DNA of 64,000 bases from contig JARLGZ010000104.1 of NCBI GenBank assembly GCA_031292515.1, forward strand, positions 62,001 to 126,000, written 5' to 3'. The DNA comes from Puia sp. GTDB taxonomy: Bacteria > Bacteroidota > Bacteroidia > Chitinophagales > Chitinophagaceae. The position numbers and the translations under genes were made by a program. Every line of letters begins with the position of its first letter. The first letter of the stretch is position 1. Positions 43,873-60,105 of the stretch are shown piece after piece. Below the pieces are notes generated by a model. It had not been told where the DNA came from. It did not search any database and saw nothing but the letters and a program-made list of their open reading frames with translations.

Positions 43873-46380
43873 TTATTTTGTCGTCCCCAATTCCCCGGGG
43901 AGACCTCGCACCCTGAAACTGATTTTCAAGGTTGTCTTTGCACCGCCCGATGCTGCGCCGTTCACACGAACATCGTTCCTGCCCGGTAACAATTCCCAAT
44001 GCAGGTCCTGCGCCGTCCCGGCGATCTCCTTCCGGTTCTCATCGGCCATATAGACCCGTTTTCCACGACCGATGACAAATTGCCCCGGCAGTAAAGACCT
44101 CCCAAACACGATGGGTTTTCCCCCGTTGATTTGCAAAGTCAGACCATCGACCGCTGCCCCGCCGGCAGCGGGCGCCTCTATGAAGAACTCCGCAGCCTGG
44201 GCTGGATAAGGGTTTTGTATCCATAGCATTCCGGAATTCCCCGTATCGATGGTCGTGTCGATCTGTCGCACCGGGTATAACTTCCAACGTTTTTCCCCCA
44301 CCCTTTCCAGGTGGAACCGGTTTTCCAGGTTCCTGAAGGCCTCTTTGTATCTTGCCGTGAATACACCCGCCGCCCGCGCGTCTTCCCAGGTCCTTATGGC
44401 ATGAAAAATGGCCTGCTTCTCCCCGCATTTTTCGACATCTTCCTGCCCCAGCCCGAGCATATACTGCCCATCCCAGCCGATGGCCCGGGTCTCCAGGTTT
44501 TCGGCGGCGGCTGCATCCCAGCGGGGCGAGAAATTGACCAACCCGAAGGAGAAATGCAGGAGATTGCTATAATAGATATGCTTGAAATCCTTGCCCTGTA
44601 TTTTGAAGCGGTTGGCGGCCGGATCGAAGAGATCGCCACCCACATCCAGGCTGCTCATATAATGCCAGTTGCCCTCAAAAATACACGAGCCGGTATTTCG
44701 TATATAGTGATGGAGATGGGCAAACAAGGTATCGTAAAACCGTTTGATGGAATACTGCCCATGCCCCTGATACCAGCAGCTCTCCAGTCCGTCAAAATCG
44801 ATATAGTCCATGCCGCCCTTGTTCAAAATATCCGCATAAGCCCTGGCGTATTGGTCCTGGAGATAGATATCAGGCGCGAACCCGCGATAAGCATTGGGCA
44901 TGAGCTTGTGAACGGAATCCGCTGCCGCATGAATGCCGGCCTGCGTATGGTCCCAGCCGCGCTGGGGATGAACCAGCGTATACGGAGCCCTGTCAGATAT
45001 CCCATCGTAGGAGATCAATTCATGCCCGATCTTTAAGACATTGGTATAGATATCTTCCCATCCGCCGCTTTCGCGCAGGAAAAAGGGATCGGCGACTTCG
45101 ATGACGGTGTCTTCCGGGCCGATGCTTTTGGTCAGTGTCGTGCTGCCAACCCGGCAAAGGTGGTCATTCGGCACGGGTGTCAGCTCCCGGCTGTCTGTCT
45201 GTATGAACTCACAAAGGGTGTGGAGGCCGAAAGCGATGCCGGCCTTGTTCGTTAGAGCCGTATAGGCGGGAATGCTCATCGAGCCCGTTGAAAAGCCGAC
45301 CCGCTTCTTATTCCAGGGATCGCCGGGATGATAGTAGTATTCCCCAAGTCCTTCATCCTGGATCGCTTCGAATCCCAGTTGCCGGGCATAGCTGATGGCG
45401 CTGTCGTGCACACCGTTCCAGGCCAGGAAGGGCTTGGCGGCCCCCGGATCCTTGACCCACTTTCCGTCGATCATAGGATGCGGCAAGCCCTCGTTCACCT
45501 CGATTTCGGAGATGACCGGCAGGGTCGACGGCTCGGGACAGCCGAAAAAAGCAACGGAAGAACCCGCGAAATCCACATCGATGGGCGCCACATATTGGTG
45601 ACGGTCGGGCGAGACGATCGAAGGCTTGAAATTGATGAGCTGCGGGATCCGGCGGTCCCTCGCATGTAACACGATATCGGATCCATAAGAAGTCAGGTAC
45701 GCGCCGTTGCCGAGGATATAGCGGAAATACTCTTCGGGTTGAGAGAAAAACGCGACATCGCTGCTGCCGAGGGAATCCCCCCCGATATGAAAGATCTGTC
45801 CTTCGTGAAGATTGGCCGGCAGCGTTACGCCCGGGGGCGCATGCACCAGGTAATAGCTCTGGTAGAGATCGCCTTCCGAAGGAGGCCCGCCCGTGGTGGA
45901 CCCATCCAGGGCCTGCAGGCCGATCGAGAACTGATCGTCCCTGACAACGGAGACGATCTCCCCGATCGTCCGGGAGATGCAAGTCTTATAGGGTCCCCAG
46001 ACGATATTGTCCACTCCGTCCCGCGGGCTGAGAGACAACAACTGCATCCGCCAATAAGAATGCTTGTTCCGGATCGCCACGCGGGCCACCGATCCATTGG
46101 GGTAGACGAGGGCCATCGTCTGACGGGCGGGATCGAAGGAAGCGGATACGGGCCGAAGGGTCACCTTACCTTTGGTGAGGCTTAACAACGCAGATGAATC
46201 CCCTGCCGCCGCATACTCCTTCCCCGTGATCCGGTCCCTGATGCTTGTAATATAACCGCCTGCGCTGACCCGGATGGTCGCATATCGCGTGGAAAACGAT
46301 CGCGGTTGTCCGATGCTGGCAAAAGACAGGAGCAACAGGGCTGTAAATAAAACAGGCACGATTAAAATCCTTCTTGACAT
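43873..46380 (-). CDS. Large secreted protein B, candidate uncharacterised glycosidase
   Basis: The product is 835 residues with a signal peptide (IVPVLFTALLLLSFASIGQ). I recognise no named family. It is a clear paralogue of the 872-residue-frame protein upstream. Shared blocks in order: VWGPY, then (F)(S/A)(I/V)G(L/M)QALD, YVAPIDVDF, FFGCPEP, LPHPM(I/L)DG, GIAFGLHTL, the PDIYLQDQYA strand and YIDFDGLE (D528, D530). A beta-sandwich N-terminus, a barrel-like middle and a beta-rich C-terminus is the usual layout of retaining or inverting glycosidases. The locus context suggests surface or periplasmic glycan attack. Confidence 0.7.
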   Translation of the reverse strand: MSRRILIVPVLFTALLLLSFASIGQPRSFSTRYATIRVSAGGYITSIRDRITGKEYAAAGDSSALLSLTKGKVTLRPVSASFDPARQTMALVYPNGSVARVAIRNKHSYWRMQLLSLSPRDGVDNIVWGPYKTCISRTIGEIVSVVRDDQFSIGLQALDGSTTGGPPSEGDLYQSYYLVHAPPGVTLPANLHEGQIFHIGGDSLGSSDVAFFSQPEEYFRYILGNGAYLTSYGSDIVLHARDRRIPQLINFKPSIVSPDRHQYVAPIDVDFAGSSVAFFGCPEPSTLPVISEIEVNEGLPHPMIDGKWVKDPGAAKPFLAWNGVHDSAISYARQLGFEAIQDEGLGEYYYHPGDPWNKKRVGFSTGSMSIPAYTALTNKAGIAFGLHTLCEFIQTDSRELTPVPNDHLCRVGSTTLTKSIGPEDTVIEVADPFFLRESGGWEDIYTNVLKIGHELISYDGISDRAPYTLVHPQRGWDHTQAGIHAAADSVHKLMPNAYRGFAPDIYLQDQYARAYADILNKGGMDYIDFDGLESCWYQGHGQYSIKRFYDTLFAHLHHYIRNTGSCIFEGNWHYMSSLDVGGDLFDPAANRFKIQGKDFKHIYYSNLLHFSFGLVNFSPRWDAAAAENLETRAIGWDGQYMLGLGQEDVEKCGEKQAIFHAIRTWEDARAAGVFTARYKEAFRNLENRFHLERVGEKRWKLYPVRQIDTTIDTGNSGMLWIQNPYPAQAAEFFIEAPAAGGAAVDGLTLQINGGKPIVFGRSLLPGQFVIGRGKRVYMADENRKEIAGTAQDLHWELLPGRNDVRVNGAASGGAKTTLKISFRVRGLPGELGTTK

Positions 46381-46399: not shown

Positions 46400-48961
46400 T
46401 TATGGTTTTCCGGCCACCTGCTCCGGCTTGCCGACAGATTCAAAGTCAAATGTAAGCATTGGGGACTGTTCCCCGGAGAAATCGCTGGTGACGACGATCT
46501 CATTTGTTCCCTCTGCCCAATTGGGGATGGCGTTCACCCTGATCTCCTTCAGCTTCTTCCAGTATGCATCGCAGAAATACAGTGTCTTGCCATCGAGGAT
46601 CAGTTTGTCTCCCGCCCGGATGGGATCGCCGATTTCCAGGTCCTGGTAATTGTTGATGGAGATCCGCAGGTTCGAAAGGGTTTCGGTTGAATTGCCGTCC
46701 GTCGCTTTCGCAGTTATATAGAATCTTACCGGTTGGACCCCATACGGATTAGTGATCGAAAACCGGTTGGTGACAGGTTCTCCGGTCTGGGTCTTCCTGA
46801 ATTTATGCCCATACCCCGTTTGCAAACTGACAGGGTATAATTGCCATTGGTTCGGGCCGGTCCTCTGCAGATGGAACTCGCTTTTGGGGTCTTTGAACTT
46901 CTCGATCTGGTCGACGCTGAACGCACCCGCATTCCGTGCCTTCTGCCATTCCGTGACAGCGGTAAAGATCTCATCCTTAAACCCGTTCTTCTCGATGCTC
47001 TCATCCACCCGCAATAGGTAGCCGGCATTGAAGGCCGCGCTACGCGCCTGTATCCACTCGATCTCTTCCGGCCGGTAGTCGACACCCAGGCTGAACCAGC
47101 CCAACATATGCGGCATATAATTCCGGTCAAAATAGCGTTGATTTTCGATCCGGTAATTCACCTGGCTTTGCCGCAGGGCGTTGTACCAGGGCTCTCCCCA
47201 GTTCATAAAGGAGTAAATATGCCAGTAATAGTGGAAAGTGCCGGCCCCGCAGGTAAGCACATACCTGTCCAGGCTTCTGTACCAGAGGTCCACAAATTTC
47301 GCGGCGCCATACGTCCCCTCGCCCGTAGGAGATTCTCCGCCAAAGCCGTCAAAATCCATCAAGCCCAACCCCGTCTCATTGCACACCGCTGCCAGTCTTT
47401 TCGAATACGCATCCTGCAAATGGATATCAGGATAAAACCCCTGGTAATCGTTATTGATCAGTTTCGCGACCCTGCTCCCCGCGGGATGAACGGCCTTCAA
47501 GGTCCTAAACTGGCCCCTTCGGCAATCCAGCAGATGCCAGGGAGCTTCCGGGGAAATGCCCCGGTAGCCGATCAGCTCCTTGCCAATTTTTACCGTGTGG
47601 GTTCCCGTCAGATTTCGAAAATAGACAGGGTCTTTAATATAAACGAGGACATCGTTCTCTCCCAGTTCCTTCGACAATACCGTCGTGCCGGCCTCTGCCA
47701 GGCTATCACTTGGAATGGGCGCTATATAGGGATCGTCGGTACCGGTGAACATCGTCAGCGTGTGCACACCCAGTGCGATGCCGCTCTGTCCGGCAAGCGT
47801 CGTGACTTTTCTTATATCGCGGGCCCCGCCGGGATAACGGCTCGTCTCAAGACCGAAATGCCCCCAGCTATGAAAGAGATCTCCCGCGTGGATGAGTTTG
47901 AAGCCGCAGCGATCCGCATATTCGATACCTTTCCGTATATCCTTGCCTTCGAACATCAGGTATGCCTGCCCGGGAATCTTCGATCGCTTGATCCATTCTC
48001 CGTCCAACATGGGATGCGGCAGTTTTTCGGCGACCTCTACAGCACCGATGATATCCAATACCTTAGGCTCGGGGCAGCCGAAGAAGGCGATGGCCGAGCC
48101 GGTAAAATCCACGTCGATAGGCGCTACATATTGAAGGTTCGTTCCCTTTGAAGAAGCGTTTCCGTTTTCTACGACCCTGGCTAACCGACGGTCGCGGGAA
48201 AAAAGCCGCAGCTCGCTGCCATAGGTTTTTTTGACGGCCGCACTCCCGCGATACATGCGGACATATTCGGGCATATCACCGGTGACATTCACATTTACCG
48301 GCACTTCAAGCCCTACCGACCCTTTCAGCGAATCCGGCAGCTTTTGTCCGGGCAAGGGATCGATAAAGGACCCGCCGCCCGCATTGTCATTTCCTTCCGG
48401 AAGACCTTCGATCGTGTTGATGTCCAGCGCCTGCATGCCTACTGCAAACTTCTCATCGTGTACCACGCAGATAGTTTCGCCGATGGATTGCCTGATACGG
48501 GTTCCATATGGGCCCCATACAACCGCCTGGACACCCTGCCGTGGTTCTACAGATAACAGTTCGAACCGGAGGTATCCGCCTTTGGCACCCACCGAAACGA
48601 TAGCTACCGACCCGTTCTCATATGCCAGCCGGAGCTTTTTATGGCCCGCAAGATAGCTGACCGAGCGTGGCTTGCTGTAAACGGAATCCTTGTACAGCGA
48701 TAGCAGCGGAGAAACATGGCCGTCGGGCATATAGTCTGCCCCACCCGCTTTATCAAACAGGTGGATCATATTCCCGGATCCATCCAGTTCAATACGCATA
48801 TAGTCCGTCTGCAATACGATGTTGCCGCTTTTTCCGGGGACCTTGCTTTTTCCAGGCGGCAGTTCCGCCCCACCGGCAGCCACGGAAACCCCGGGTGACA
48901 GGAGGACATACGCGGGTAACAGGAAGACATACAAAAATTTGTTTGAAAACCTCGTTGCCAT
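46400..48961 (-). CDS. Large secreted protein A, candidate uncharacterised glycosidase
   Basis: The product is 853 residues from the ATG at 48961, which starts a signal peptide (FLYVFLLPAYVLLSPGVSVA). ATGs at 48991 and 49018 are alternatives. It shares with the paralogue downstream VWGPYGTRIRQSIGE, FAVGMQALD, YVAPIDVDF, AFFGCPEP, LPHPMLDGEW, GIALGVHTL, YPDIHLQD and MDFDGFGGE (D536, D538). The PDIxLQD and DFDG segments, both at predicted strand ends, are the best catalytic-residue candidates. First enzyme gene after susD, 175 bp from it with a long hairpin between. No family name is claimed. Confidence 0.7.
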   Translation of the reverse strand: MATRFSNKFLYVFLLPAYVLLSPGVSVAAGGAELPPGKSKVPGKSGNIVLQTDYMRIELDGSGNMIHLFDKAGGADYMPDGHVSPLLSLYKDSVYSKPRSVSYLAGHKKLRLAYENGSVAIVSVGAKGGYLRFELLSVEPRQGVQAVVWGPYGTRIRQSIGETICVVHDEKFAVGMQALDINTIEGLPEGNDNAGGGSFIDPLPGQKLPDSLKGSVGLEVPVNVNVTGDMPEYVRMYRGSAAVKKTYGSELRLFSRDRRLARVVENGNASSKGTNLQYVAPIDVDFTGSAIAFFGCPEPKVLDIIGAVEVAEKLPHPMLDGEWIKRSKIPGQAYLMFEGKDIRKGIEYADRCGFKLIHAGDLFHSWGHFGLETSRYPGGARDIRKVTTLAGQSGIALGVHTLTMFTGTDDPYIAPIPSDSLAEAGTTVLSKELGENDVLVYIKDPVYFRNLTGTHTVKIGKELIGYRGISPEAPWHLLDCRRGQFRTLKAVHPAGSRVAKLINNDYQGFYPDIHLQDAYSKRLAAVCNETGLGLMDFDGFGGESPTGEGTYGAAKFVDLWYRSLDRYVLTCGAGTFHYYWHIYSFMNWGEPWYNALRQSQVNYRIENQRYFDRNYMPHMLGWFSLGVDYRPEEIEWIQARSAAFNAGYLLRVDESIEKNGFKDEIFTAVTEWQKARNAGAFSVDQIEKFKDPKSEFHLQRTGPNQWQLYPVSLQTGYGHKFRKTQTGEPVTNRFSITNPYGVQPVRFYITAKATDGNSTETLSNLRISINNYQDLEIGDPIRAGDKLILDGKTLYFCDAYWKKLKEIRVNAIPNWAEGTNEIVVTSDFSGEQSPMLTFDFESVGKPEQVAGKP

Positions 48962-49026
48962 AATCAAATAATTTTTACGCTTTCTATTCATTGCAATTAT
49001 ACTTTCTTTTCCTGCCATTTATCTCA

Positions 49027-49097
49027 AAAAGCCTGCATGCTGTCTTTGCGCCGGCAAAACGCTTTGACGCGGGGTGACGGAAACGACAGCATGCAGG
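49027..49097 (-). promoter_or_regulatory. Long hairpin between susD and the enzyme genes (attenuator or partial terminator)
   Basis: A perfect 13-bp stem (CCTGCATGCTGTC at 49032-49044, GACAGCATGCAGG at 49085-49097) encloses a 40-nt loop. On the minus strand the descending arm is followed by CTTTTTGAG. It lies between the susD stop (49136) and the enzyme start (48961), where it could lower expression of the downstream genes or protect the susCD mRNA 3' end. Confidence 0.6.
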
Positions 49098-49135
49098 GGG
49101 AGGTATAAGGCCATGGAAAATGGTAAGCCGGCGGG

Positions 49136-50998
49136 TTATTGGATCACCGGGTTAAACGTCCCGTTGTCCCAACCAATATTCTGTTCGAGGTTTGTATTCT
49201 GCAGAATGTACTTCGGATCGATCGGCCCAAAATAATAGGTACCGGGAATATTGATCTGGTTGCTGGAACTCACATCGATCGGCTCATAGACAAAATTTGT
49301 GATGTTCTTCAGGAAAGCGTCCTCATCAAAACCCGTCGGTGGATTGACGACCAGGTCCGAGAGCTGGCTGGCGATGACGCTGTTACTCTGCGTGACATCC
49401 ACTCCATACTGCGTGGAAGCGGCCGTCTTGTTCAGGTAAGGGCCATAGGCATGCAAGGTTCCGTAATTGTTCAGGACTCCGAACATCCGCCTGCGACGCA
49501 GGTCCCAGAAACGCTTGCCTTCATAGGCGAATTCAATTTCCCGCTCCTTCATGACAGCATCCAGGGTCGCCTGGTAGTCTGATCCTACGCCTGAAGCCAG
49601 GCCGTAGTTACCAGATCCGGCGGCGATCTTCGAGCGCTGCCGGATCTGGATGATATAATTCTTCGCGTCGGCGGAATGTCCCGTCTCGTTGCCGGCCTCC
49701 GCCAGGTTGAGCAGCACTTCCGCATACCTGATAATAGGCCAATCGAAGGCCTGGTGGTTCCACACGGTCGACCCCAGCGTCGTATCTATTTCCTTCCGGC
49801 AGTAAAACCCGGTGATATTATAGTTAGGGCTCACCTTGTAGCCGTCATTGCCGCCAATTCCGTTAAAAATCCACTCGACCCGCGGATTCACGTCCGCAAA
49901 GTCATAACGTGCGCCATTGTAGACAATGGCGCAATAAAAACGCGGATCCCGATTCTTCCAGAATTCGGTCGAATCGTAACCGGAAGCAGGATCGTTGATG
50001 TCCATACCATTGCTCATGGGATATTCTTTCACCATTTCCCAGGTAGGATCGCAGCCGCCCGCCGCTCCTGAGGTCTCGGTTAACGGCCTCTGGGATTGTT
50101 GGAAACCGTTCGTCTTCTGGGGATAATTGAACCGCAGGTACAAGACCATCTCTTTTGCCGCGCCGGCTTTGTCATACCACATGTTTTCTGTCGTCTTCAG
50201 GGTGTTGTCCGTATACAACCCGTATCCATCTGCATCGAGTTCGGTCTTGGCTGCCAGCAGGGCATTATAGGCGTCCGTCCAGTACTGTGGATTCGGGGTA
50301 GTGCAGAACAGGGGGCTGGCCTTAAGGAGCAAGGCTTCGCCTTTCACCGCCATAGCTGCCCCTTTGGTGATCCGCCCGATATCGCCGGAACCCCAGGTTG
50401 TGGGTAACAGCATGATTGCGGAATCCAGTTGGCCGGAAATGAAGTCGAAACATTCCAGCGAAGTATTCCTTTTTACAAGCAGGCTGTTCGGGTCGGCGGT
50501 AGGATCCTGGACGGTCGTGATGATGGGCACGCCACCCAGGACCTTGACCATCCGGTAATAGAGATAAGCCCGGAAAAAATAGGCCTGCCCTTTTACATAT
50601 TGGTAATCGGAAGATGACAAGACGGACTGGCTGGCGTCGATATTGGCAAAGAAAGTATTAATCGAACGGACATTGACCCAGTCCCATACCAGGTCGGGAT
50701 AGCCGCTGGCACTGTTATATTTGCCGGTGAGGAAGATATTGAGGGCGTTTCCTCCGTTACCTCCCGAAAAGGCTTCTCCCGAAACTTCCTCATTCCGGTT
50801 AAAAGACGGCAGGATGGTATAAAAATTATTGACATAGTCTTTTATATAGTCAGGGCTGCTCCATAACGCCGAACCCGTGAGCACCCCGCCCGGATGATCC
50901 ACATCAAAGACTTTTTTGCAGGAACCTGTACCGATGGCAAGGCCCAGTAAAACGACTACAATACCGGAAAAGGATATATTATTGATCGAGTATTTCAT
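49136..50998 (-). CDS. susD: SusD/RagB family surface glycan-binding lipoprotein
   Basis: The product is 620 residues. A lipoprotein signal ends at GTGSC (Cys27), followed by KKVFDVDHPGG. The SusD core is visible: GQAYFFRAYLYYRMVKVLGGVPIIT, the TPR-like helices with KGEALLLKASPLFC, YAEVLLNLAEAGNETGHSADAKNYIIQIRQRS, and the closing MKEREIEFAYEGKRFWDLRRRRMF. SusD caps the SusC transporter and binds oligosaccharide at the cell surface. It starts 20 bp after susC. The specificity is not readable from sequence. Confidence 0.95.
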   Translation of the reverse strand: MKYSINNISFSGIVVVLLGLAIGTGSCKKVFDVDHPGGVLTGSALWSSPDYIKDYVNNFYTILPSFNRNEEVSGEAFSGGNGGNALNIFLTGKYNSASGYPDLVWDWVNVRSINTFFANIDASQSVLSSSDYQYVKGQAYFFRAYLYYRMVKVLGGVPIITTVQDPTADPNSLLVKRNTSLECFDFISGQLDSAIMLLPTTWGSGDIGRITKGAAMAVKGEALLLKASPLFCTTPNPQYWTDAYNALLAAKTELDADGYGLYTDNTLKTTENMWYDKAGAAKEMVLYLRFNYPQKTNGFQQSQRPLTETSGAAGGCDPTWEMVKEYPMSNGMDINDPASGYDSTEFWKNRDPRFYCAIVYNGARYDFADVNPRVEWIFNGIGGNDGYKVSPNYNITGFYCRKEIDTTLGSTVWNHQAFDWPIIRYAEVLLNLAEAGNETGHSADAKNYIIQIRQRSKIAAGSGNYGLASGVGSDYQATLDAVMKEREIEFAYEGKRFWDLRRRRMFGVLNNYGTLHAYGPYLNKTAASTQYGVDVTQSNSVIASQLSDLVVNPPTGFDEDAFLKNITNFVYEPIDVSSSNQINIPGTYYFGPIDPKYILQNTNLEQNIGWDNGTFNPVIQ

Positions 50999-51017
50999 AC
51001 TAATAAATTTGAGGAGG

Positions 51018-54000
51018 TTAGAAACTGGCGTTTAATCCGAAAGTGAACCCTTTTAATACGGGATAGGTCCTGAAATCGCCACCCATTTCGGGATCCCAGT
51101 CCTTTGTATGGTTCCATTCGTATAGATTATCCCCGTTAAAATAAATCCTCACGGCCTTGACTTGTGAATTTCTGAACAGCCTCGCCGGAAGATTGTAGTT
51201 CAGGGTCAACGATTTCAGCCTGAGCAGGTCTCCGTTCTTCAGCCAGAAGGTCGAGTTCTGCTCCGTGTTGGAAATACCCTGCCAGTCGTTCATGATCGCG
51301 CTGGGCATCGTCGCCGTCGCAGCGGTGGCAGGCGTCCAGGCATTTTTCCAGATCGTCAGATTATCATTGCCTGGCAGCGGACGGGTGTAGTACACGTTCG
51401 TAGGCATGACCTGGTAGCGGGCCAGACCGGAGAAGATGGCCGATAACTCAAGGCCCTTGTATCCTACCGCAAAATTGAACCCGTAGTTGATCCGGGGCAC
51501 GCCGTTGAAACTGATCGGGCCATAATCGTTGTTATCGACCAGGCCATCGGGCTTATCGGTACCCAGTGGCCCCCGGAGATCCTGATACATAATCATGCCG
51601 GGTTGCGGTTTGTTGCCCAGTAAGGTAAAATTGGGACCGTTGGCCGCGAGTATCTTGTTGACGTCGTCCTGGCTGCGGATAATGCCTTCCGCGCGATAGC
51701 CCTGGATTATTCCGTTGATAGGATGGCCGATCAGGTTCGCATAGTCACGGACCGACGCAGCCTGATCTACTCTTACATACTTGTTGCTGGAAACCGACCA
51801 GTTCGCTGCAACACGATAATAGACCTGCCCGACCGTGTTCTCATGACTTACCGTCACTTCAAAACCCTGTGCCGACGCGATGCCATAGTTGACGGCGGGC
51901 AGGGTGGCCCCTACCGTACTGGGTACGGAGGCGATACGTGATCCCAGGATATCGGTAGTGCGTTTATTCCACCAGTCGAGAGTGGCGCCAAACAGGCGTT
52001 TCGGCATGCTCAGATCCAATCCTATATCGTAATTATGATTTCTTTCCCAGGTGATATCAGGGTTGACAGTAGAACCCAGGGTGGTGGAAGGAGGAAGTCC
52101 GGATCCCAGATAGACGCCGGAACTGGCATTGAAGTTATAGGTCTGCTGCCATTGCCAGGGAGCGGTATTATCCGTACCGGTCACGCCATAAGAAAATCGC
52201 AACTTGGCCACATCCAGGTATTTGGTCAGACCCTGAAAAAAATCTTCTTTCGCTGCGTTCCAGGCCGCCGAAACGGAAGGGAAATAACCCCAACGTTTGT
52301 TAGACGGGAAAATATACGAGCCATCGGCACGAAAAGTCACACCCAGCATGTATTTGGAGTTGTAGTTGTAGTCGACTCTTCCAAGCCAGGATGAAAATCC
52401 GGTCGGTTGGTATTCGTCGCCCTGTATATTCCAGTCCGTGCTGCTGGAAGAACCCCCGTTGATCTGCTGGTAGCCGGTATTGCTGTAGTTATTATCGCTG
52501 ATGGAAGACCAATGCCCCTGGTAAGCCGACTGCTCATAGCCGCCGAAGGCTGAGATATTATGCAGACCGAACGAGTGTTCATAGTTGAGCATCAGGTCCA
52601 GCTGATAGTTTGAGGATTGGACATAGTTCTCTGTCAGTTGCGTCGGAGCGCCTATGCCTGCCGTCTGGGCCTGGTCCAGGATCTTGTATCCGCCGGCAAG
52701 CGAGGAATCCAGCTGATCTGTCACGATATGGTTATTGGTGCCTGTCGTTTTAAAGTAATAGATATAAGGCGCGTTGTGCCAACCCTTGGTATAGCTGTTG
52801 TAGGTATTGTAGGCCAGCGTTCCTTTCGCGGACAGACCGGTGATGCCAGGAATATCGTATTTTAACTGGAAGGTAGGCGTGATATAGTTATTCGAGGGAC
52901 GGATATAACCGCCGGCTCCTTTGGCAAGGTTCGCCGTATTCGAGTTGTCGAAGTTTCCAACCGGCAGATTATTGATAAACGATGGCCTTCCCGGTGTGTT
53001 CATCAGCAGACGGTTGTAAATATTTGACAGGTTGAAATCACCATAGTCATATGCCCAGAAAGGACGGCTGCCATTGTCCCATTCCCCGGAAAAATTCAGG
53101 CTATAACTCAGCCGCTTGCTGATCTGCCCGTCGAGCTTGGCGAGAATATTATACTTAAAAAAGGAGTTGCTGGTCGCACCCTGTTGCCGGAGAATCCCCC
53201 CGGAGACATAGTAACGGGTTCCCTTGGAGCCCCCGCTCATCGAAAGGTTATGCGAAGTATGCCAGGGGTTTTGCCAGGTATCCTTAAGCCAGTCGTAGGA
53301 ATGAGTCTTGAAATAGGCCAGCTCGTCCGCCGAATAGTAGCTCGGGTCCGTCGAGGGGATGCCTTTTTGATCGTAAGCCTGGTCGGCAAACGTATAGGCG
53401 TCAAATGCGTTCATCCTTCTCGGCGTGATTTCGCGCGTATTCAGGGTATAAGATCCATTGTAAGAGATAGTGGTCTTGTCCGCCACCCCATGTTTAGTGG
53501 TTACCAGCAGCACACCGTTCCCGCCTTTGATACCGTAGATGGCGGCCGAAGCGGCGTCTTTGAGCAAACTGATGCTCTCGATATCGGTGGGGTTGATCGT
53601 GGCGAATACCGAAGAGTCACGGACAAATCCATCGATCACGAATAAGGGAGAGCTCCCCCCCATCCAGGTGGATGTCTCCCGGATCTTGATATTGGCGCCG
53701 GCGCCGGGGTAACTTCCCTGCATCGAAACCGTCAGACCGGCCGCCAGTCCTTGTAACAGATTGGCCGGAGAGGCAGTTGGCCGGTCGGCCAACACCTCAG
53801 ACTTGATGACACCTACGGCGCCTGTCAGGTTTTCTTTTTTCTGCGTACCGTAACCTACCACCACGACATCATTCATGTCCGACAAAGCAAGGTGGAGGAT
53901 GATCGAAACAGGCTTCCCGGCAACCGCTTTAAAGCTGTATGTCTTGTAACCAACCAGGGACACATCGATCCAGGCCCCCTCTTCCGCGTCGATCTTAAAG

Positions 54001-54524
54001 CCACCCTTTTCGTCCGTCACGGCCCCCCTGTTGGTACCGCGGATCGTAACCGAAGCCCCGGCGAGCGGCTGCCCCTTCTCATCGGTGACCACGCCGGGAA
54101 CCGGCGGGAGAGCGGCCGGAACAGCGGAAACACCCGGAACGACTGGCTTTTCCGCAGGACCAGGGCTCTGTGTAATGACAATAGAGCCCTCATCGATCTC
54201 GAAATCCAGGGACTCATCTCTCAGACAAGCCTTCATCACCTCTTCGATCGCCGCGTTCCGCACACTGATCGAAACAGGTTTCGCGTTTTTCAACAGCCTG
54301 TAATTGTAGAAAATGGAATAACCGGTTTGTTTTTTGATTTCGGCAAAAGCCTTTTCAAGAGGGACGTTTCTTAGCTCCAGGGTCACCTTTTGGCCGAAGG
54401 TGCGGGCTTGAACATTGAGGCAAACAACCAATAAAAAAAAGGACGTTAGCTTCATTACTAACAGAGTTTTGGTTACGAAACCCGGCCGCTGACGACGGGG
54501 TTTGAAAAGCGCAGTTAATTGCAT
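51018..54524 (-). CDS. susC: SusC/RagA family TonB-dependent transporter with STN domain
   Basis: The product is 1,168 residues. A long N-terminus precedes the signal (MKLTSFFLLVVCLNVQA, with a possible inner start at 54455). Then come an STN domain (about 45-115, VPLEKAFAEIKKQTGYSIFYNYRLLKN), a carboxypeptidase-like regulatory domain (GVVTDEKGQPLAGASVTIRGTNRG), the plug (VVVGYGTQKKENLTGAVGVI) and the 22-strand barrel. The STN domain marks transporters that signal to a FecR anti-sigma factor, encoded just upstream. It imports oligosaccharide with SusD. Its leader is covered by a predicted antisense RNA. Confidence 0.95.
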   Translation of the reverse strand: MQLTALFKPRRQRPGFVTKTLLVMKLTSFFLLVVCLNVQARTFGQKVTLELRNVPLEKAFAEIKKQTGYSIFYNYRLLKNAKPVSISVRNAAIEEVMKACLRDESLDFEIDEGSIVITQSPGPAEKPVVPGVSAVPAALPPVPGVVTDEKGQPLAGASVTIRGTNRGAVTDEKGGFKIDAEEGAWIDVSLVGYKTYSFKAVAGKPVSIILHLALSDMNDVVVVGYGTQKKENLTGAVGVIKSEVLADRPTASPANLLQGLAAGLTVSMQGSYPGAGANIKIRETSTWMGGSSPLFVIDGFVRDSSVFATINPTDIESISLLKDAASAAIYGIKGGNGVLLVTTKHGVADKTTISYNGSYTLNTREITPRRMNAFDAYTFADQAYDQKGIPSTDPSYYSADELAYFKTHSYDWLKDTWQNPWHTSHNLSMSGGSKGTRYYVSGGILRQQGATSNSFFKYNILAKLDGQISKRLSYSLNFSGEWDNGSRPFWAYDYGDFNLSNIYNRLLMNTPGRPSFINNLPVGNFDNSNTANLAKGAGGYIRPSNNYITPTFQLKYDIPGITGLSAKGTLAYNTYNSYTKGWHNAPYIYYFKTTGTNNHIVTDQLDSSLAGGYKILDQAQTAGIGAPTQLTENYVQSSNYQLDLMLNYEHSFGLHNISAFGGYEQSAYQGHWSSISDNNYSNTGYQQINGGSSSSTDWNIQGDEYQPTGFSSWLGRVDYNYNSKYMLGVTFRADGSYIFPSNKRWGYFPSVSAAWNAAKEDFFQGLTKYLDVAKLRFSYGVTGTDNTAPWQWQQTYNFNASSGVYLGSGLPPSTTLGSTVNPDITWERNHNYDIGLDLSMPKRLFGATLDWWNKRTTDILGSRIASVPSTVGATLPAVNYGIASAQGFEVTVSHENTVGQVYYRVAANWSVSSNKYVRVDQAASVRDYANLIGHPINGIIQGYRAEGIIRSQDDVNKILAANGPNFTLLGNKPQPGMIMYQDLRGPLGTDKPDGLVDNNDYGPISFNGVPRINYGFNFAVGYKGLELSAIFSGLARYQVMPTNVYYTRPLPGNDNLTIWKNAWTPATAATATMPSAIMNDWQGISNTEQNSTFWLKNGDLLRLKSLTLNYNLPARLFRNSQVKAVRIYFNGDNLYEWNHTKDWDPEMGGDFRTYPVLKGFTFGLNASF

Positions 54525-54531
54525 ACTTTTG
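54501..54531 (+). promoter_or_regulatory. Promoter antisense to susC
   Basis: TTTG at 54501-54504 and TACTTTTG at 54524-54531 are separated by exactly 19 bp, a full match to the Bacteroidota promoter consensus, on the strand opposite susC. The -7 element starts at the susC start codon. Confidence 0.6.
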
Positions 54532-54537
54532 TAAAGT

Positions 54538-54627
54538 TTGGGTTAAACAATAAGCAGTTCCAACAATTGTATTACTGGGCCAACCTGAACGCCTGCCGCT
54601 TCGGTCGCACCCGAAGCGGTTTTGTTT
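54538..54627 (+). ncRNA. Predicted cis-antisense small RNA against the susC leader
   Basis: About 90 nt would be made between the antisense promoter (54501-54531) and the intrinsic terminator (54596-54627). No ORF lies within it. It is complementary to the susC 5' leader, ending upstream of the coding region. Cis-antisense RNAs in the same position (DonS type) repress polysaccharide loci in Bacteroides. Existence is inferred from promoter plus terminator; the 5' end is approximate. Confidence 0.5.
54596..54627 (+). terminator. Plus-strand intrinsic terminator between fecR and susC
   Basis: A 9-bp perfect stem CCGCTTCGG / CCGAAGCGG (54596-54619) with a 6-nt loop is followed by TTTGTTTT. All neighbouring genes run on the minus strand, where no T-run follows the stem, so it can only end a plus-strand transcript. 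Confidence 0.72.
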
Positions 54628-54748
54628 TCAGTAAGCCACTATCCTGAAGCCGGGGCTTTCTATTTAATTTTTCATCTTCGCTGGTTTTTAGTTAGATAAT
54701 TTCATCTTTGACATCCGCCATCTTCAAAACTTCTATCTGCCCGCTTAT

Positions 54749-56017
54749 CTAAGGCATGACAATGATCTTATTCCCCTCGATGCTGAAATGTACCTGGCTC
54801 TTTTCCAGGAAATGAAACACCTTTGTCAGGGGCAGGGACCGCCTGATGTCTCCTCCAAACAGATCGCCCGTCACTTGCCCCCTGTATTCCACTTCCATAT
54901 CATACCACCGGCACAATTGTCTCATCACCGATTGAATGCTGGAATGATCGAACAGGAATACACCGTTTTTCCAGGCTACGGTTGCATCGGTGTTCACATC
55001 CCTGACAATTGAGATTTCCCCGTCCTTTCCCACCTGGGCCTGCTGTCCGGGCTCCAGTCGTCTATCTCTTCCGCCTTGAACGACCCTGACGCTTCCTTCC
55101 AATAACGTCGTATTGACGGTAGCCTCGTCAGCGTAGGCATTTACGTTGAAATGTGTCCCCAGCACTTCAATTTTTTGCGTTTTATTGACGACGACGATAA
55201 AGGGCATGGTCTTATCGGGTCGCACTTCGAAATAAACCTCCCCGGTGACATCGACCTGTCTTTGGCCACCTGCAAATGCTGTCGGATAACGAATGGAAGA
55301 AGCTGCATTCAGCCAAACGGCCGTCCCATCCGGCAGGATCAGTTTGTATTGGCCGCCCCGCGGTGTGCTCATCGTATTATAGAGGATTTCGGTTTCCCCG
55401 CCGTTCTTTGCCCGATAGGCCAACTGCCCGTTATCGAGCTTAACGATCCTGGTATTGCCCTGCCGCGCGAGTTCCCCATTGTCCGCACTGTCCAGGACGA
55501 TGGACGAGCCATTCGACAGGGTCAGGATAGCCCGGTTCCCGCCGGGAGGCACTTCTCTTCTCTCCGGTTTCGGGGGACTCGCCCGGAGGGTCACTTCCTG
55601 CCGGCGGGAATGGAGGGACAAATAATAGGCCCCATATCCCAGCAGCAGCACCACACAAGCCGCCACCGCATAACGTCTTCGGACAGAACCGCTGCGCCCG
55701 CCGACGGAAGGCATTTTACCCGCCTCCGGATACCCTTCTCCGGACGGTATCCCCGCTGGTCCCTCTCTCCCTCCATCCGTTCGCATGAATCCTTCCCGCG
55801 AAGCCTCTTTGTCAAACGCGATCATCTGTTTCAGATCCGACAGAATGTCCTTCCGGAGACCTTCCAGGTCCTGCGGTGTCTTACTCAGGACGACCTCAAT
55901 ATCGCCTGCATTGACGACATCATACCACTCGTGAAGCTGGCGTTGCTCATCTTCACTGGCGACGCCCTCCAGGTATTTTTTTGCGAGATCATTTATCTGT
56001 TGCGGGGTAAGGTTCAT
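54749..56017 (-). CDS. FecR-type anti-sigma factor
   Basis: The product is 422 residues from the ATG at 56017; nine extra codons upstream are possible. An N-terminal cytoplasmic part (MNLTPQQINDLAKKYLEGVASEDEQRQLHEWYD) binds the sigma factor. One membrane helix lies near 120-140 (YAVAACVVLLLGYGAYYLSL). The periplasmic FecR domain (YNTMSTPRGGQYKLILPDGTAVWLNAASSIRYPTAF) and a DUF4974-type C-terminus with FLFDHSSIQSVMRQLCRWYDMEVEY follow. It holds the ECF sigma until the STN domain of SusC reports substrate. Gene order sigma, fecR, susC is typical. Confidence 0.94.
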   Translation of the reverse strand: MNLTPQQINDLAKKYLEGVASEDEQRQLHEWYDVVNAGDIEVVLSKTPQDLEGLRKDILSDLKQMIAFDKEASREGFMRTDGGREGPAGIPSGEGYPEAGKMPSVGGRSGSVRRRYAVAACVVLLLGYGAYYLSLHSRRQEVTLRASPPKPERREVPPGGNRAILTLSNGSSIVLDSADNGELARQGNTRIVKLDNGQLAYRAKNGGETEILYNTMSTPRGGQYKLILPDGTAVWLNAASSIRYPTAFAGGQRQVDVTGEVYFEVRPDKTMPFIVVVNKTQKIEVLGTHFNVNAYADEATVNTTLLEGSVRVVQGGRDRRLEPGQQAQVGKDGEISIVRDVNTDATVAWKNGVFLFDHSSIQSVMRQLCRWYDMEVEYRGQVTGDLFGGDIRRSLPLTKVFHFLEKSQVHFSIEGNKIIVMP

Positions 56018-56087
56018 GGAGTATCCTTTCCTATATAGATACATGAACCGGGAATCCTTACGTAGAAAAACAAATTTTTTTTAGCAA

Positions 56088-56651
56088 CTACAGAAGCAGG
56101 AGGGGAAATACCAGTTTTTGACGATGGTTGCGCATGATATGCATCACCTTCGCCACATAGGCTTCAGCCGTACGCGGAGAGACGCCCAATTGCCGGGCTA
56201 CTTCCTCCAAAGGTTTGTCAAGCAGTTTATTATGGATGAAGACGATCCTGTACTTATCGGGGAGATGTTCGGTGAACCGGGTGAGGACGTCCAGTAACTG
56301 CTTATTTTCGAGATCGAATGTATCCGCTACCCTGCCCCCCTGCAATTGTCTAAAATTCCGCAGAACATTCGTCCTTCTCTTTTCATTTGCAAGAAAACGG
56401 TAAATGGCAAATCTTGCCATGCCTGCCAGATACAAAGGAAGGGACTGTATTTCCAACCTCGCTCGTTTGTCCCAGAGATTGAAAAAGACATTTTGAAGCA
56501 CTTCCCTGGCGTCTTCGATGGAGACCAGCCGCTTATGTGCCATGAAGAATAAAGGTTCCCAGTAACGGTTGTAAATTTCCGTGAAGGCATTCTCATCGCC
56601 GTTCTGTAACTGCAGCAGCAGTTCCTGGTCGCTATGTGAGTTAGTTTGCAG
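56088..56651 (-). CDS. ECF-type RNA polymerase sigma factor (FecI-like)
   Basis: About 187 residues if translation starts at CTG 56651. The first ATG (56543) falls inside region 2 and would lose DQELLLQLQNGDENAFTEIYNRYWEPLFF, which is normal sigma-2 sequence, so the true start must lie upstream. Only CTG and other non-standard codons are available before the in-frame stop. Region 2 (EVLQNVFFNLWDKRARL) and region 4 (LPDKYRIVFIHNKLLDKPLEEVARQLGVSPRTAEAYVAKVMHIMR) are intact. It is regulated by the FecR protein downstream and drives the glycan locus. Confidence 0.85.
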   Translation of the reverse strand: MQTNSHSDQELLLQLQNGDENAFTEIYNRYWEPLFFMAHKRLVSIEDAREVLQNVFFNLWDKRARLEIQSLPLYLAGMARFAIYRFLANEKRRTNVLRNFRQLQGGRVADTFDLENKQLLDVLTRFTEHLPDKYRIVFIHNKLLDKPLEEVARQLGVSPRTAEAYVAKVMHIMRNHRQKLVFPLLLL

Positions 56652-56669
56652 CCGGGCTTATTAAGACCT

Positions 56670-56677
56670 TAAAGATA
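56670..56677 (-). promoter_or_regulatory. Possible -7 element of the sigma factor gene
   Basis: On the minus strand TATCTTTA matches TANNTTTG except at the last base. It would start the RNA about 12 nt before the CTG at 56651. Confidence 0.3.
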
Positions 56678-56751
56678 ATAAAAAAGTAATGTAAGGAACT
56701 AAAAAATGGCGGACCGTGCGATACCTTGCCGTTTCCGCAAAACGAAAACGC

Positions 56752-57309
56752 ATGAAATCTCCCAGGCTGTTCCATATCAGCGAGGAACCGGGTATCCCCA
56801 GCTTTAAACCGAGGCCGTCGCCTTCCTTCTTTTCCGCGATACAAGGAGACACAGTCTTCGCCATTACAGAGAAACTCCTGCACAATTACCTCCTGCCCCG
56901 GGACTGCCCAAGGGTCACTTTTTACGCCAATGCGAAGACGACGGCGGCGGATGTCCATACCTTTATGGGGCATAGCTCCGCGGCGTTTGTCGTAGCCGTG
57001 GAAGCGGGTTGGTATCCCCTTATCGCCCGGACCCGGCTCTATTGCTATGAATTTCCAACCGGCTCCTTCTCGGTGCTGGATGAGATCGCGGGTTACTATA
57101 TCTCTTATGAGGAAGTCGCACCCGTATCCGTCCGGGAGATCGCCGACATCCCGGCGGAACTATTTAAAAGAAATATAGAGCTGCGTATCATGCCGACGCT
57201 ATGGATACTCTCGGACGCCATCGCCCGTTCTTCCCTGTCGTATTCTATCATCCGGATGCGCAACGCCATTCCCAGGCAAACGGAACCCGGACAAACCAAA
57301 ACCGGCTAA
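56752..57309 (+). CDS. DUF6886-like protein
   Basis: The product is 185 residues from the ATG at 56752; a GTG at 56716 is also in frame. The start MKSPRLFHISEEPGIPSFKPRPSPS, the CPRVTFYAN strand, and AFVVAVEAGWYPLIARTRLYCYEFP are recognisable as the family annotated DUF6886. There is no signal peptide or membrane segment. The repeated Trp/Tyr/His positions suggest a small-molecule or nucleotide fold, but the function is unknown. It is divergent from the ECF sigma gene and faces a convergent ABC permease gene. Confidence 0.75.
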   Translation: MKSPRLFHISEEPGIPSFKPRPSPSFFSAIQGDTVFAITEKLLHNYLLPRDCPRVTFYANAKTTAADVHTFMGHSSAAFVVAVEAGWYPLIARTRLYCYEFPTGSFSVLDEIAGYYISYEEVAPVSVREIADIPAELFKRNIELRIMPTLWILSDAIARSSLSYSIIRMRNAIPRQTEPGQTKTG

Positions 57310-57347
57310 CAGACCCGGGCCGCTCCCACAGATTCTTCTGACCGCCG

Positions 57348-59783
57348 CTATTCGGACCTGAGACTATTAACCGGATTCGATAGAGCGGTCTTGATCGCCT
57401 GGATGCCAACCGTCAACAGCGCGATTCCGGCGATACAAATACCCGTTATGGCGAACACCCACCATTCCAGCCCGATCCGGTAAGCGTAGCCCGACAACCA
57501 TCGGTTCATCAACCAACCGGCAAACGGGGCAGCGATGAGGAAGGCGATCACGACGAGCCGTAGAAAATCCCGGGAGAGTAAGGTGACAAGATCCGTAACC
57601 GAAGCCCCCAGGACCTTTCTGATTCCAACCTCCTTCGTACGGTTGATCGCCGCAAGCGAGGCGAGACCGAACAGACCCATACAGGCCAGGGAAACAGAGA
57701 TACCGCCGGCCCAGCCGACGATATTGCCGAGACGCGTCTCCGATTTATAAAAGGTATCCAGGTCCTCGTTCAAAAAATTATACTGCAGCGGATAGTCCGG
57801 TGCTATATTCTTCCATGCTTTTTGAATGGCTGCCAAAGCCATCGAAGGATCTCCGGGCCGTATGCGGACAAAAAAGCGATAGGGAATGTTCGGGGAAAAT
57901 TGACTGAACAACTGCGGCTCGATTTTATCCTGCATGCCGAGGTAGTTGAAATCCTTCACTACGCCGATAACGACCGGATCACTCGCGGGATCGGACCCGA
58001 AAAAGCCTGTTAAGCGCCGCCCGGTGGCATCGTCTATAGTCCAACCGAGTTCTTTCATCATCGTCTCGTTGATGATGACGGAACTGACCGTATCGACCGA
58101 CATCCCGTCGGAGAAATTTCTTCCGGCCAATAGTCTCATATCCATCAGCGGCAGATACCCGGAGCTGACTGAGTACTGCGTATTGCTGATAGATTTTCCA
58201 TTGTAGCGGAATGAATTCATATTCATTCCCTCGAGTTCCCCCAGTCCGCAGTCGGCACTGGCGGTGGCTACGATCTCCGGACGGGTACTCAACTCCTGCT
58301 TGAATAGTGGGTATAGTTTCTTCGTGTCCGGCACGCCCAGCGCCTCGACCACTACTACATTCTCTTTATTAAACCCCGGGTCCTTCGTCTGCATATAATG
58401 AAGCTGCTGCATGATGACCAGGGTGCCGATGATGAGACCCGCGGAAAGAATGAATTGCAGGGTGACCAGCGTCTTTGTAAAGAGATTCCCGCCTCCCAAC
58501 TTGATCTTTGCCTTCAGCACCTCCACGACCCTAAACCGGGAAAGCAGGAGGGCCGGGTAACTTCCGGCGAGGATCCCCGTGAGGATAACCCCGAAAGCCA
58601 TCAGGCCGTATAGTTGAGGAAATTGACGAAACGAAAAAGACAACTCTCTCCCGGATAGTCGCCTGAAAAAAGGCAGCAACCCGTTTGCCAGCAGAAATCC
58701 CAACAAACCCGCTATCATGGCCAGCAAAACCGACTCCGTCAAAAACTGGAAGACCAGCGACTTCCGGCTTCCCCCCATGACCTTGCGCACACCGACTTCC
58801 TTCGCCCGGTCCGCGGAACGGCCAATCGCCAGGGTAGTAAAATTAATAGAGGCGATCAGGAGCACGCCGGCCGAAATAATCAACAGGATCCATATCGATT
58901 GAGGGTCGACGGCTGGGGAACGATAATTCATATAGTTTGGGTCGGTATGGATGGCCGTCAAAGGCTGCAGGCCAAAACGAGGTTGGGGCCCTGAACTTTC
59001 CGGGGCTTCGGGCCTGGAGCCGCCGGTTCTATCGGTCTTCAGCGGAAAATATCTCCGGAAGATGTCTTCCAACAGCTTTTTATCCTGCGGTAAACGACTC
59101 CCCGGCTTCAGCTGCAGATAAGTGACATAGGAATTTACATTCCAGTTATTGACACCTCGTCTGCCTTCCGGGGTGGTGGCAAAATAATCGAAATTGCCCA
59201 GCATCCGGAATTGAAAAGAAGTGTTGGAAGGCGGATTCTCGGCAATCCCGGTGATGGTGAACGGGTCAAATACCTCTCCGATCTTTATCCTGATCGTCTT
59301 GCCGACGACATCCGTCGTTCCAAACAGGTTCCTCGCCGTCTCTTCGGTCAGGACCAGGCTTTGCAAGCCTTGCAGCGCCGTAGCAGGATCTCCCGATTTC
59401 AATTTAAACGAAAATGCGGAAAAGAACGAAGGGTCGGCGAGAGACAGAACCCCACGCGATTCTTTCTCGCCGGTTTTCAGGAATGCCGTATAGTACCCTA
59501 TATACCGGATATAGTTTTCCACGCCGGGCAGATCCCTTTTCAGAGCCGGTCCCGCCGGCATCGGCAGGAAGATACTGCCGCCTTCTTCCCCTGTCCTTAT
59601 ATTGACCCGGTAAATATCCCTGGCGTTCCTGTGAAAGCTGTCGAAGCTGAATTCATTGACCGAATAAAGCAGGCAGAGGCTGAAACAGGCGATACCCAAC
59701 GACAACCCGAACACGCTGATAAAAGAAAGAATCTTCTGTTTGCCGAGATTCCGCCAGGCTATTTTGAGGTAGTTTTTGAACAT
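57348..59783 (-). CDS. MacB/FtsX-type ABC transporter permease
   Basis: The product is 811 residues, the duplicated Bacteroidota form. It starts MFKNYLKIAWRNLGKQKILSFISVFGLSLGIACF (helix 1 plus MacB core domain), then periplasmic MacB_PCD (about 60-280), FtsX helices near 290-320, 345-365 and 390-410. A second core domain lies at about 430-640, and three C-terminal helices include EVGIRKVLGASVTDLVTLLSRDFL. The EVGVRKVMGGSRKSLV and EVGIRKVLGASVTDLV coupling helices contact an ATPase that is not encoded nearby. Probably exports peptides or lipoproteins, or transmits mechanical force. Confidence 0.9.
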   Translation of the reverse strand: MFKNYLKIAWRNLGKQKILSFISVFGLSLGIACFSLCLLYSVNEFSFDSFHRNARDIYRVNIRTGEEGGSIFLPMPAGPALKRDLPGVENYIRYIGYYTAFLKTGEKESRGVLSLADPSFFSAFSFKLKSGDPATALQGLQSLVLTEETARNLFGTTDVVGKTIRIKIGEVFDPFTITGIAENPPSNTSFQFRMLGNFDYFATTPEGRRGVNNWNVNSYVTYLQLKPGSRLPQDKKLLEDIFRRYFPLKTDRTGGSRPEAPESSGPQPRFGLQPLTAIHTDPNYMNYRSPAVDPQSIWILLIISAGVLLIASINFTTLAIGRSADRAKEVGVRKVMGGSRKSLVFQFLTESVLLAMIAGLLGFLLANGLLPFFRRLSGRELSFSFRQFPQLYGLMAFGVILTGILAGSYPALLLSRFRVVEVLKAKIKLGGGNLFTKTLVTLQFILSAGLIIGTLVIMQQLHYMQTKDPGFNKENVVVVEALGVPDTKKLYPLFKQELSTRPEIVATASADCGLGELEGMNMNSFRYNGKSISNTQYSVSSGYLPLMDMRLLAGRNFSDGMSVDTVSSVIINETMMKELGWTIDDATGRRLTGFFGSDPASDPVVIGVVKDFNYLGMQDKIEPQLFSQFSPNIPYRFFVRIRPGDPSMALAAIQKAWKNIAPDYPLQYNFLNEDLDTFYKSETRLGNIVGWAGGISVSLACMGLFGLASLAAINRTKEVGIRKVLGASVTDLVTLLSRDFLRLVVIAFLIAAPFAGWLMNRWLSGYAYRIGLEWWVFAITGICIAGIALLTVGIQAIKTALSNPVNSLRSE

Positions 59784-60105
59784 ATGCGCTGTTTGGAGAT
59801 TGCAGAATTAAAATAGGATTTCCGTAAAAACCGTATGAAGACGCATCCAAAAAAATGCCGAAGTCACAAAATGTTCATAATCTGTCATTTGAACTGAACC
59901 CAGAGACCCGATCGTCCGGAAATGATACAACCGCTGTTCATTTGTATTCATGGCTCAACGGACAGGCATCCGTAATTCGACTCTTCTTAGAGACAGTCGC
60001 TACTTTCTCACCCCGGATGGTCCGCATGGCGAATGACGGAAGCAGGGAGGACTAAAAGGGCTTTTTTGCAAGGGTGCAGGGCAGCGTGGCCGGCCTCGCA
60101 CCCTT
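59784..60105. other. Intergenic region without a supported gene
   Basis: This 322-bp gap lies between two minus-strand genes. A 66-codon plus-strand frame (59855-60055) has no family resemblance or plausible start region. An 8-bp stem AAGGGTGC / GCACCCTT (60070-60105) abuts the S41 gene's stop but lacks a T-run on either strand after it. Confidence 0.5.

Follow-up and report, generated by a model that had tools for sequence, protein, structure and literature searches.

The window, a stretch of 64,000 nucleotides from the 7.3-Mb genome of a Puia sp., encodes on its minus strand a sigma factor gene (56088..56543, a 151-aa open frame with a Pfam Sigma70_r4_2 match and Sigma70_r2 under the cut-off) that forms a sigma/FecR pair with a fecR-type anti-sigma gene (54749..56044, Pfam FecR and FecR_C), followed by an STN-type susC (51018..54524, Pfam STN, CarbopepD_reg_2 and Plug, with a TonB barrel match slightly under the cut-off) and by susD (49136..50998, Pfam SusD_RagB). 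Two long minus-strand frames 3' of susD, at 46400-49018 (872 aa) and 43873-46380 (835 aa), gave no Pfam match at E 0.001. The strand opposite susC appears to carry the gene of a short RNA whose fold is conserved, a predicted antisense RNA of 93 nt at 54536..54628 that lies, as had been claimed for it, on the plus strand and thus opposite to all four genes.

Judged by its letters, the predicted promoter of this RNA is of housekeeping type. The -7 box TACTTTTG (54524..54531, plus strand) reads TAnnTTTG, the form taken by the Bacteroidota housekeeping sigma promoter, and overlaps the susC start codon at 54524, and a TTTG, the -33 box of the original prediction, lies 19 bp upstream at 54501..54504 on the same strand; letters, coordinates and the overlap are all as first described. 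As stated in the accessible part of PMC9723704, a -7 box occupies positions -12 to -5 relative to the transcription start, so that the RNA would begin at 54536, near the 54538 given earlier, and +1 would fall on the first base of a helix, P1. The conserved block GTTTGGGTTAAACAATAAGCAGT (54536..54558, plus strand) begins at this predicted start. At the other end a terminator hairpin (54595..54620, plus strand), found by a terminator scan and matched by antisense terminators at related loci, consists of the perfect 9-bp stem CCGCTTCGG/CCGAAGCGG plus one G-U pair with a loop of 6, followed by the T-run TTTGTTTT (54621..54628, plus strand), recognised from its letters and from conservation ending near there; stem and T-run at 54595-54628 agree with the original reading. 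The terminator stands first in the list of 17 terminator-like sites in 48000-60000, where 13.2 are expected. A possible third copy of the GGTTAACC motif past the T-run is weak, with six of eight letters in 0.20 of the sequences versus 0.07 of shuffled ones.

The strict pattern TTTG-(19-21)-TAnnTTTG occurs four times in the window with 0.53 occurrences expected. The claim that fewer than one such match would arise by chance is therefore correct as an expectation, but the match at the locus is one of four, which makes the promoter pattern alone weak evidence and leaves the decision to the comparison with relatives. Among 71 related rows with CATA and without N, reduced to 67 by removal of near-duplicates, TTTG was found at a gap of 19 from the -7 box in six and at gaps of 19-21 in eight, and even the shorter TTG occurred upstream in eight at the spacing of the window and in 11 at gaps 19-21. 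A -33 box as a conserved element is thus unsupported, the TTTG of the window is facultative or incidental, and the "full promoter" claimed at the outset loses its -33 half; of the promoter and terminator pair expected to be conserved in relatives, the -7 box and the terminator are kept. Variation inside the -7 box among the 67 relatives is greatest at its two n positions, TA being fixed by the row filter. In the window (54453-54524) and in relatives, SusC carries an N-terminal extension beginning MKLT that precedes the signal peptide. Since the conserved first codons of this extension overlie the antisense promoter, the constraint on them may act on DNA rather than on protein. In one relative (L106:6088-6219), an insertion of about 20 nt with an inverted repeat separates the conserved block from the -7 box, which stays at the start codon, so the predicted RNA start would shift into the insert.

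Used as a DNA query, 54300-54800 found matches in 23 of 58 genomes including its own, many of them over the block just 5' of susC starts. A scan for GTTTGGGTTAAACAATAAGCAGT with two positions degenerate returned 27 contig stretches assigned to Chitinophagaceae genera or broader Bacteroidetes groups, and three exact copies, with 23 identical bases, are present in the Puia genome itself. Near-copies and multiple loci of a single genome are among these 30 loci, and in every one of them an antisense terminator stands at a distance of 70-98 nt from the start codon, with hairpin scores of 25-32 on the antisense strand versus 4-23 for the best hairpin on the sense strand. At E up to 1, the covariance model R1 located 12 sites in the genome of 7.3 Mb, with 150 of 1944 first-look candidates scored and three of the 12 being training rows. 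Every one of the 12 coincides with the start of an STN-type susC gene that is preceded, at about 0.3-1.5 kb, by a FecR match. Up to E 10, the window contains a single hit, 54522-54627 (92.3 bits), and this window copy is one of the 29 training rows of the model.

As a control that makes no use of the model, TonB receptor genes of the same genome were chosen by protein domain only (60 of 81 Plug matches), each start being placed at the first in-frame ATG, with L040 excepted, and were called STN-like when at least 190 residues separated the chosen ATG from the plug; one of the 24 genes so classed, L088, is not a SusC. Strong antisense terminators face 17 of the 24 STN-like leaders and two of the 36 others (Fisher p 1e-7, related loci being treated as independent), versus strong sense terminators at one leader of each class; among letter-shuffled sequences, 3/120 attained the terminator cut-off for the STN-like leaders and 0/180 for the others. 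Seven STN-like leaders, one of them that of the gene which is not a SusC, have no strong antisense terminator, and one receptor outside the STN-like class, L043 (G000:C238:49500-55500), breaks the rule with a strong antisense hairpin followed by a T-run. The exact CATAnnTTTG stands at the start codon of 9/24 STN-like and 0/36 other TonB receptor leaders (p 9e-5, computed for 9/24 with related loci as independent; 8/24 without L040, whose start was hand-set to a second ATG bearing the -7 box), leaving 15 of the 24 without it at the chosen start. The idea that the -7 box is a mere complement of an A-rich translation start is disfavoured by its absence from the 36 other starts.

Beyond promoter and terminator, the alignments yielded a further element of which the original prediction had no trace. 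P1 consists of nine pairs between the first nine bases of the RNA (GUUUGGGUU, 54536..54544, plus strand) and a segment just 5' of the terminator (AACCUGAAC, 54582..54590, plus strand), and was obtained from the alignment fold, the model and the single-sequence fold alike. The fold was derived from a 29-row antisense alignment (A1) built without structure, from which L094 was left out as it contains N, and 14 of its 261 P1 cells are broken or gapped. For the 53 model hits, divergent copies included, of a second alignment (A2), which is fitted to the model, favours antisense pairs and includes a weak second hit in L160, 94.5% of the cells are paired and 18 of the 19 pairs of the two helices changed on both sides, and shifting the P1 partner by one column lowers the pairing to 52-53%. 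Column conservation drops to background no more than two bases past the end of the model hits. From the predicted ends, 42 of the 53 RNAs would measure 87-99 nt, within a range of 84-143 and with two above 128.

Conservation of one strand is conservation of both, so all of the above has to be weighed against a sense-strand element, in which the susC mRNA leader folds and controls translation, with the antisense -7 box and terminator as by-products. The sense hairpin folds too, and A-rich sequence 5' of a start codon looks like TTTG read from the opposite strand. The A-run lies 5' of the sense hairpin, which is thus not a sense terminator, and a count of 7-letter words 5' of the A-run returned mostly AT-rich words. 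The strands are told apart by their wobble pairs. When the hairpins of the 30 block loci, near-copies and loci from one genome included, were relocated with G-U and A-C scored equally and without requiring a T-run, their 303 pairs comprised 32 that are G-U in the antisense RNA, four that are G-U in the sense RNA and two other mismatches (binomial p 2e-6, related loci treated as independent), and the T-run too lies on the antisense side. The wobbles of P1 cannot separate the strands, because its 5' strand was fixed in A1 by the search pattern. The folding energies likewise speak against the sense element. Taken alone, the RNA of the window folds into P1 and the terminator hairpin at -31.3 kcal/mol (z -2.87), versus -26.7 kcal/mol (z -1.34) for the sense strand. 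Among the leaders gathered by protein domain, the antisense strand gives the more stable fold in 20 of 23 STN leaders (23 of the 24 STN-like, without L088; p 0.0004) versus 18 of 32 others (32 of 36; p 0.25), both p values treating related loci as independent; it has the lower energy in 50 of the 53 rows of A2, which favours antisense pairs by construction. Together with the 0/36 exact -7 boxes at other TonB receptor starts and the variation concentrated in the two n positions of the box, TA being held fixed there, this makes the sense element an unlikely explanation.

The distribution of the family, likewise absent from the original prediction, was followed beyond the Puia genome. With quick filters, which passed 39 candidates per genome to scoring in the family search and 12 in the phylum search, R1 hits at E 0.01 were obtained in 43 of 98 genomes of the family, own genome included and some of the hits being training loci, and in 55 none, with the highest copy numbers in G034 (34 hits) and G083 (28 hits). 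Across a phylum sample, 11 of 296 genomes were hit at E 0.001, six in the own family, including the own genome, and five in family f22. At 48 of 52 examined hit loci, an open frame begins in the expected position or directly beside it and continues for about 500 aa until the examined sequence ends; at the remaining four we found frames of 102 aa (L145) and 49 aa (L171), an unrelated frame of 67 aa (L172) and none (L158), so that frames above 40 aa occur at 51 of the 52. All 40 copies examined in the two multi-copy genomes (20 of 34 and 20 of 28, mostly the better-scoring ones) sit where an open frame has its start codon. The exact CATAnnTTTG is present in 41 of the 52 and 32 of the 40 hits, the model itself containing the -7 box.

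STN genes of other Bacteroidia families were surveyed at 40 selected loci, two of them from the own family. Strong antisense terminators were detected at 9/20 loci in f30, 5/6 in f24, 2/6 in f22 and 0/6 in f28, f110 and f70 together, versus strong sense terminators at one locus in f30, two in f24, where the sample is small and not one-sided, and none in f22 or in f28, f110 and f70. In f30 and f24 (among L205-L230), several STN-type starts face terminators with quite different stems, e.g. GCCGGATAATG and AGCCGGATAATA, and these look like further antisense RNA families. Given these antisense terminators at STN genes of other families, the general arrangement is wider than the R1 sequence family.

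A terminator at this place might just block stray antisense transcription into fecR and the sigma gene, with no dedicated RNA being made. Eight of the 17 STN-like leaders with a strong antisense terminator have no exact -7 box, as such an insulator would allow. However, it accounts neither for the conservation of the -7 box nor for a block that sets in at the predicted start nor for P1, and we regard it as very unlikely. A role mainly in trans seems just as improbable to us. The RNA would then act through its common 5' block on other susC leaders, in the way in which FopS RNAs repress SusC translation in trans according to the accessible text of PMC11697453, and the three own-genome copies with their 23 identical bases fit this idea. 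In the two multi-copy genomes, however, a comparison of 20 of the 34 and 20 of the 28 copies found at least 14 identical bases in only 15/190 and 5/190 pairs, similarity among the copies is largely confined to the P1 core and parts of the terminator, and each of the 40 faces a gene start of its own. The idea of a trans network thus lost support.

We therefore return to a cis-antisense RNA of about 93 nt with P1 and a terminator, whose -7 box lies on the start of susC and which most likely lowers SusC, as the explanation in which we place good confidence. The recurrence of the -7 box, the fold, the terminator and their strand, as well as their link to STN-type, FecR-linked susC genes, is established by the comparison of sequences, which supports the antisense RNA as originally proposed. 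Transcription, the exact ends of the RNA, the repression of susC and the manner of that repression we infer as follows. The housekeeping-type promoter would start transcription about 12 nt 5' of susC, heading away from the gene; P1 would bring bases 1-9 of the RNA against the segment just 5' of the terminator, and the terminator hairpin would follow. The complement of the RNA in the susC leader would extend from about -12 to -104, and because of this complementarity the RNA most likely lowers SusC production, either by pairing with the leader just 5' of the start codon, by interference of antisense transcription with the sigma-driven sense transcription, or by both. SusC would thereby be kept low without glycan, i.e. 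when sigma/FecR induction is weak. The post-transcriptional brake on susC suggested from the start would follow by analogy with DonS. Seven RRM_1 matches in the Puia genome make an RbpB-like RNA-binding helper protein for the antisense RNA possible.

On balance we favour the wider view that a structured family outside Rfam supplies many sigma/FecR susC genes of Chitinophagaceae each with its own antisense RNA bearing a 5'-end helix, amounting to up to 34 cis brakes per genome. As antisense terminators of other sequence occur at STN genes elsewhere in Bacteroidia, antisense RNA may even be standard in transport loci under sigma/FecR control throughout the class. Searched against Rfam 15, the RNA gave no match at gathering score and the whole window one tRNA only; two matches in 54400-54800 were both far under their gathering scores, and the loci of five of the 27 relatives had no match at the cut-offs. 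A search of titles and abstract beginnings, covering subscription papers to a small extent, returned no publication describing such an RNA from Chitinophagaceae. The family offers conserved parts for mutation, namely the 5' helix, the loop and the -7 box, and a covariance model with which more members can be found. It also yields the clear prediction that the transporters bearing the RNA are those that combine an STN domain with a FecR gene.

Antisense RNAs of polysaccharide utilization loci (PULs) have been described in gut Bacteroides. The accessible portion of PMC10994844 counts 32 annotated ones in B. thetaiotaomicron, with both negative and positive correlations with their PUL, and calls for further functional work. 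DonS-type RNAs are given in the part of PMC7366714 at hand as 78-128 nt long, divergent to susC homologues and lowering their expression; DonS represses its PUL by a mechanism that PMC11697453, as far as accessible, calls unknown. The RNA predicted here resembles the DonS type of B. fragilis as a short RNA that faces, and diverges from, the 5' end of a susC homologue, a layout claimed at the outset and found at all 12 own-genome sites, and its predicted 93 nt fall within the DonS range, with 84-143 nt across the hits. Unlike the DonS type, to which it is likened by layout and length, it belongs to a sequence family defined by a 5'-end helix and a start-phased block. Like the FopS/GibS sRNAs of Bacteroides, which in the text seen of PMC11697453 are expressed from canonical promoters and repress SusC translation near the start codon, it forms a multi-copy family; FopS RNAs, however, are described there as trans-acting with a shared seed and 9 of 14 as intergenic, whereas all 12 own-genome sites here face a susC start. 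With antisense RNAs of the DonS kind already known from Bacteroides PULs, we regard the present RNA as a lineage-specific structured variant of that kind, and its relatives as a sequence-defined, structured and multi-copy family outside the gut Bacteroides.
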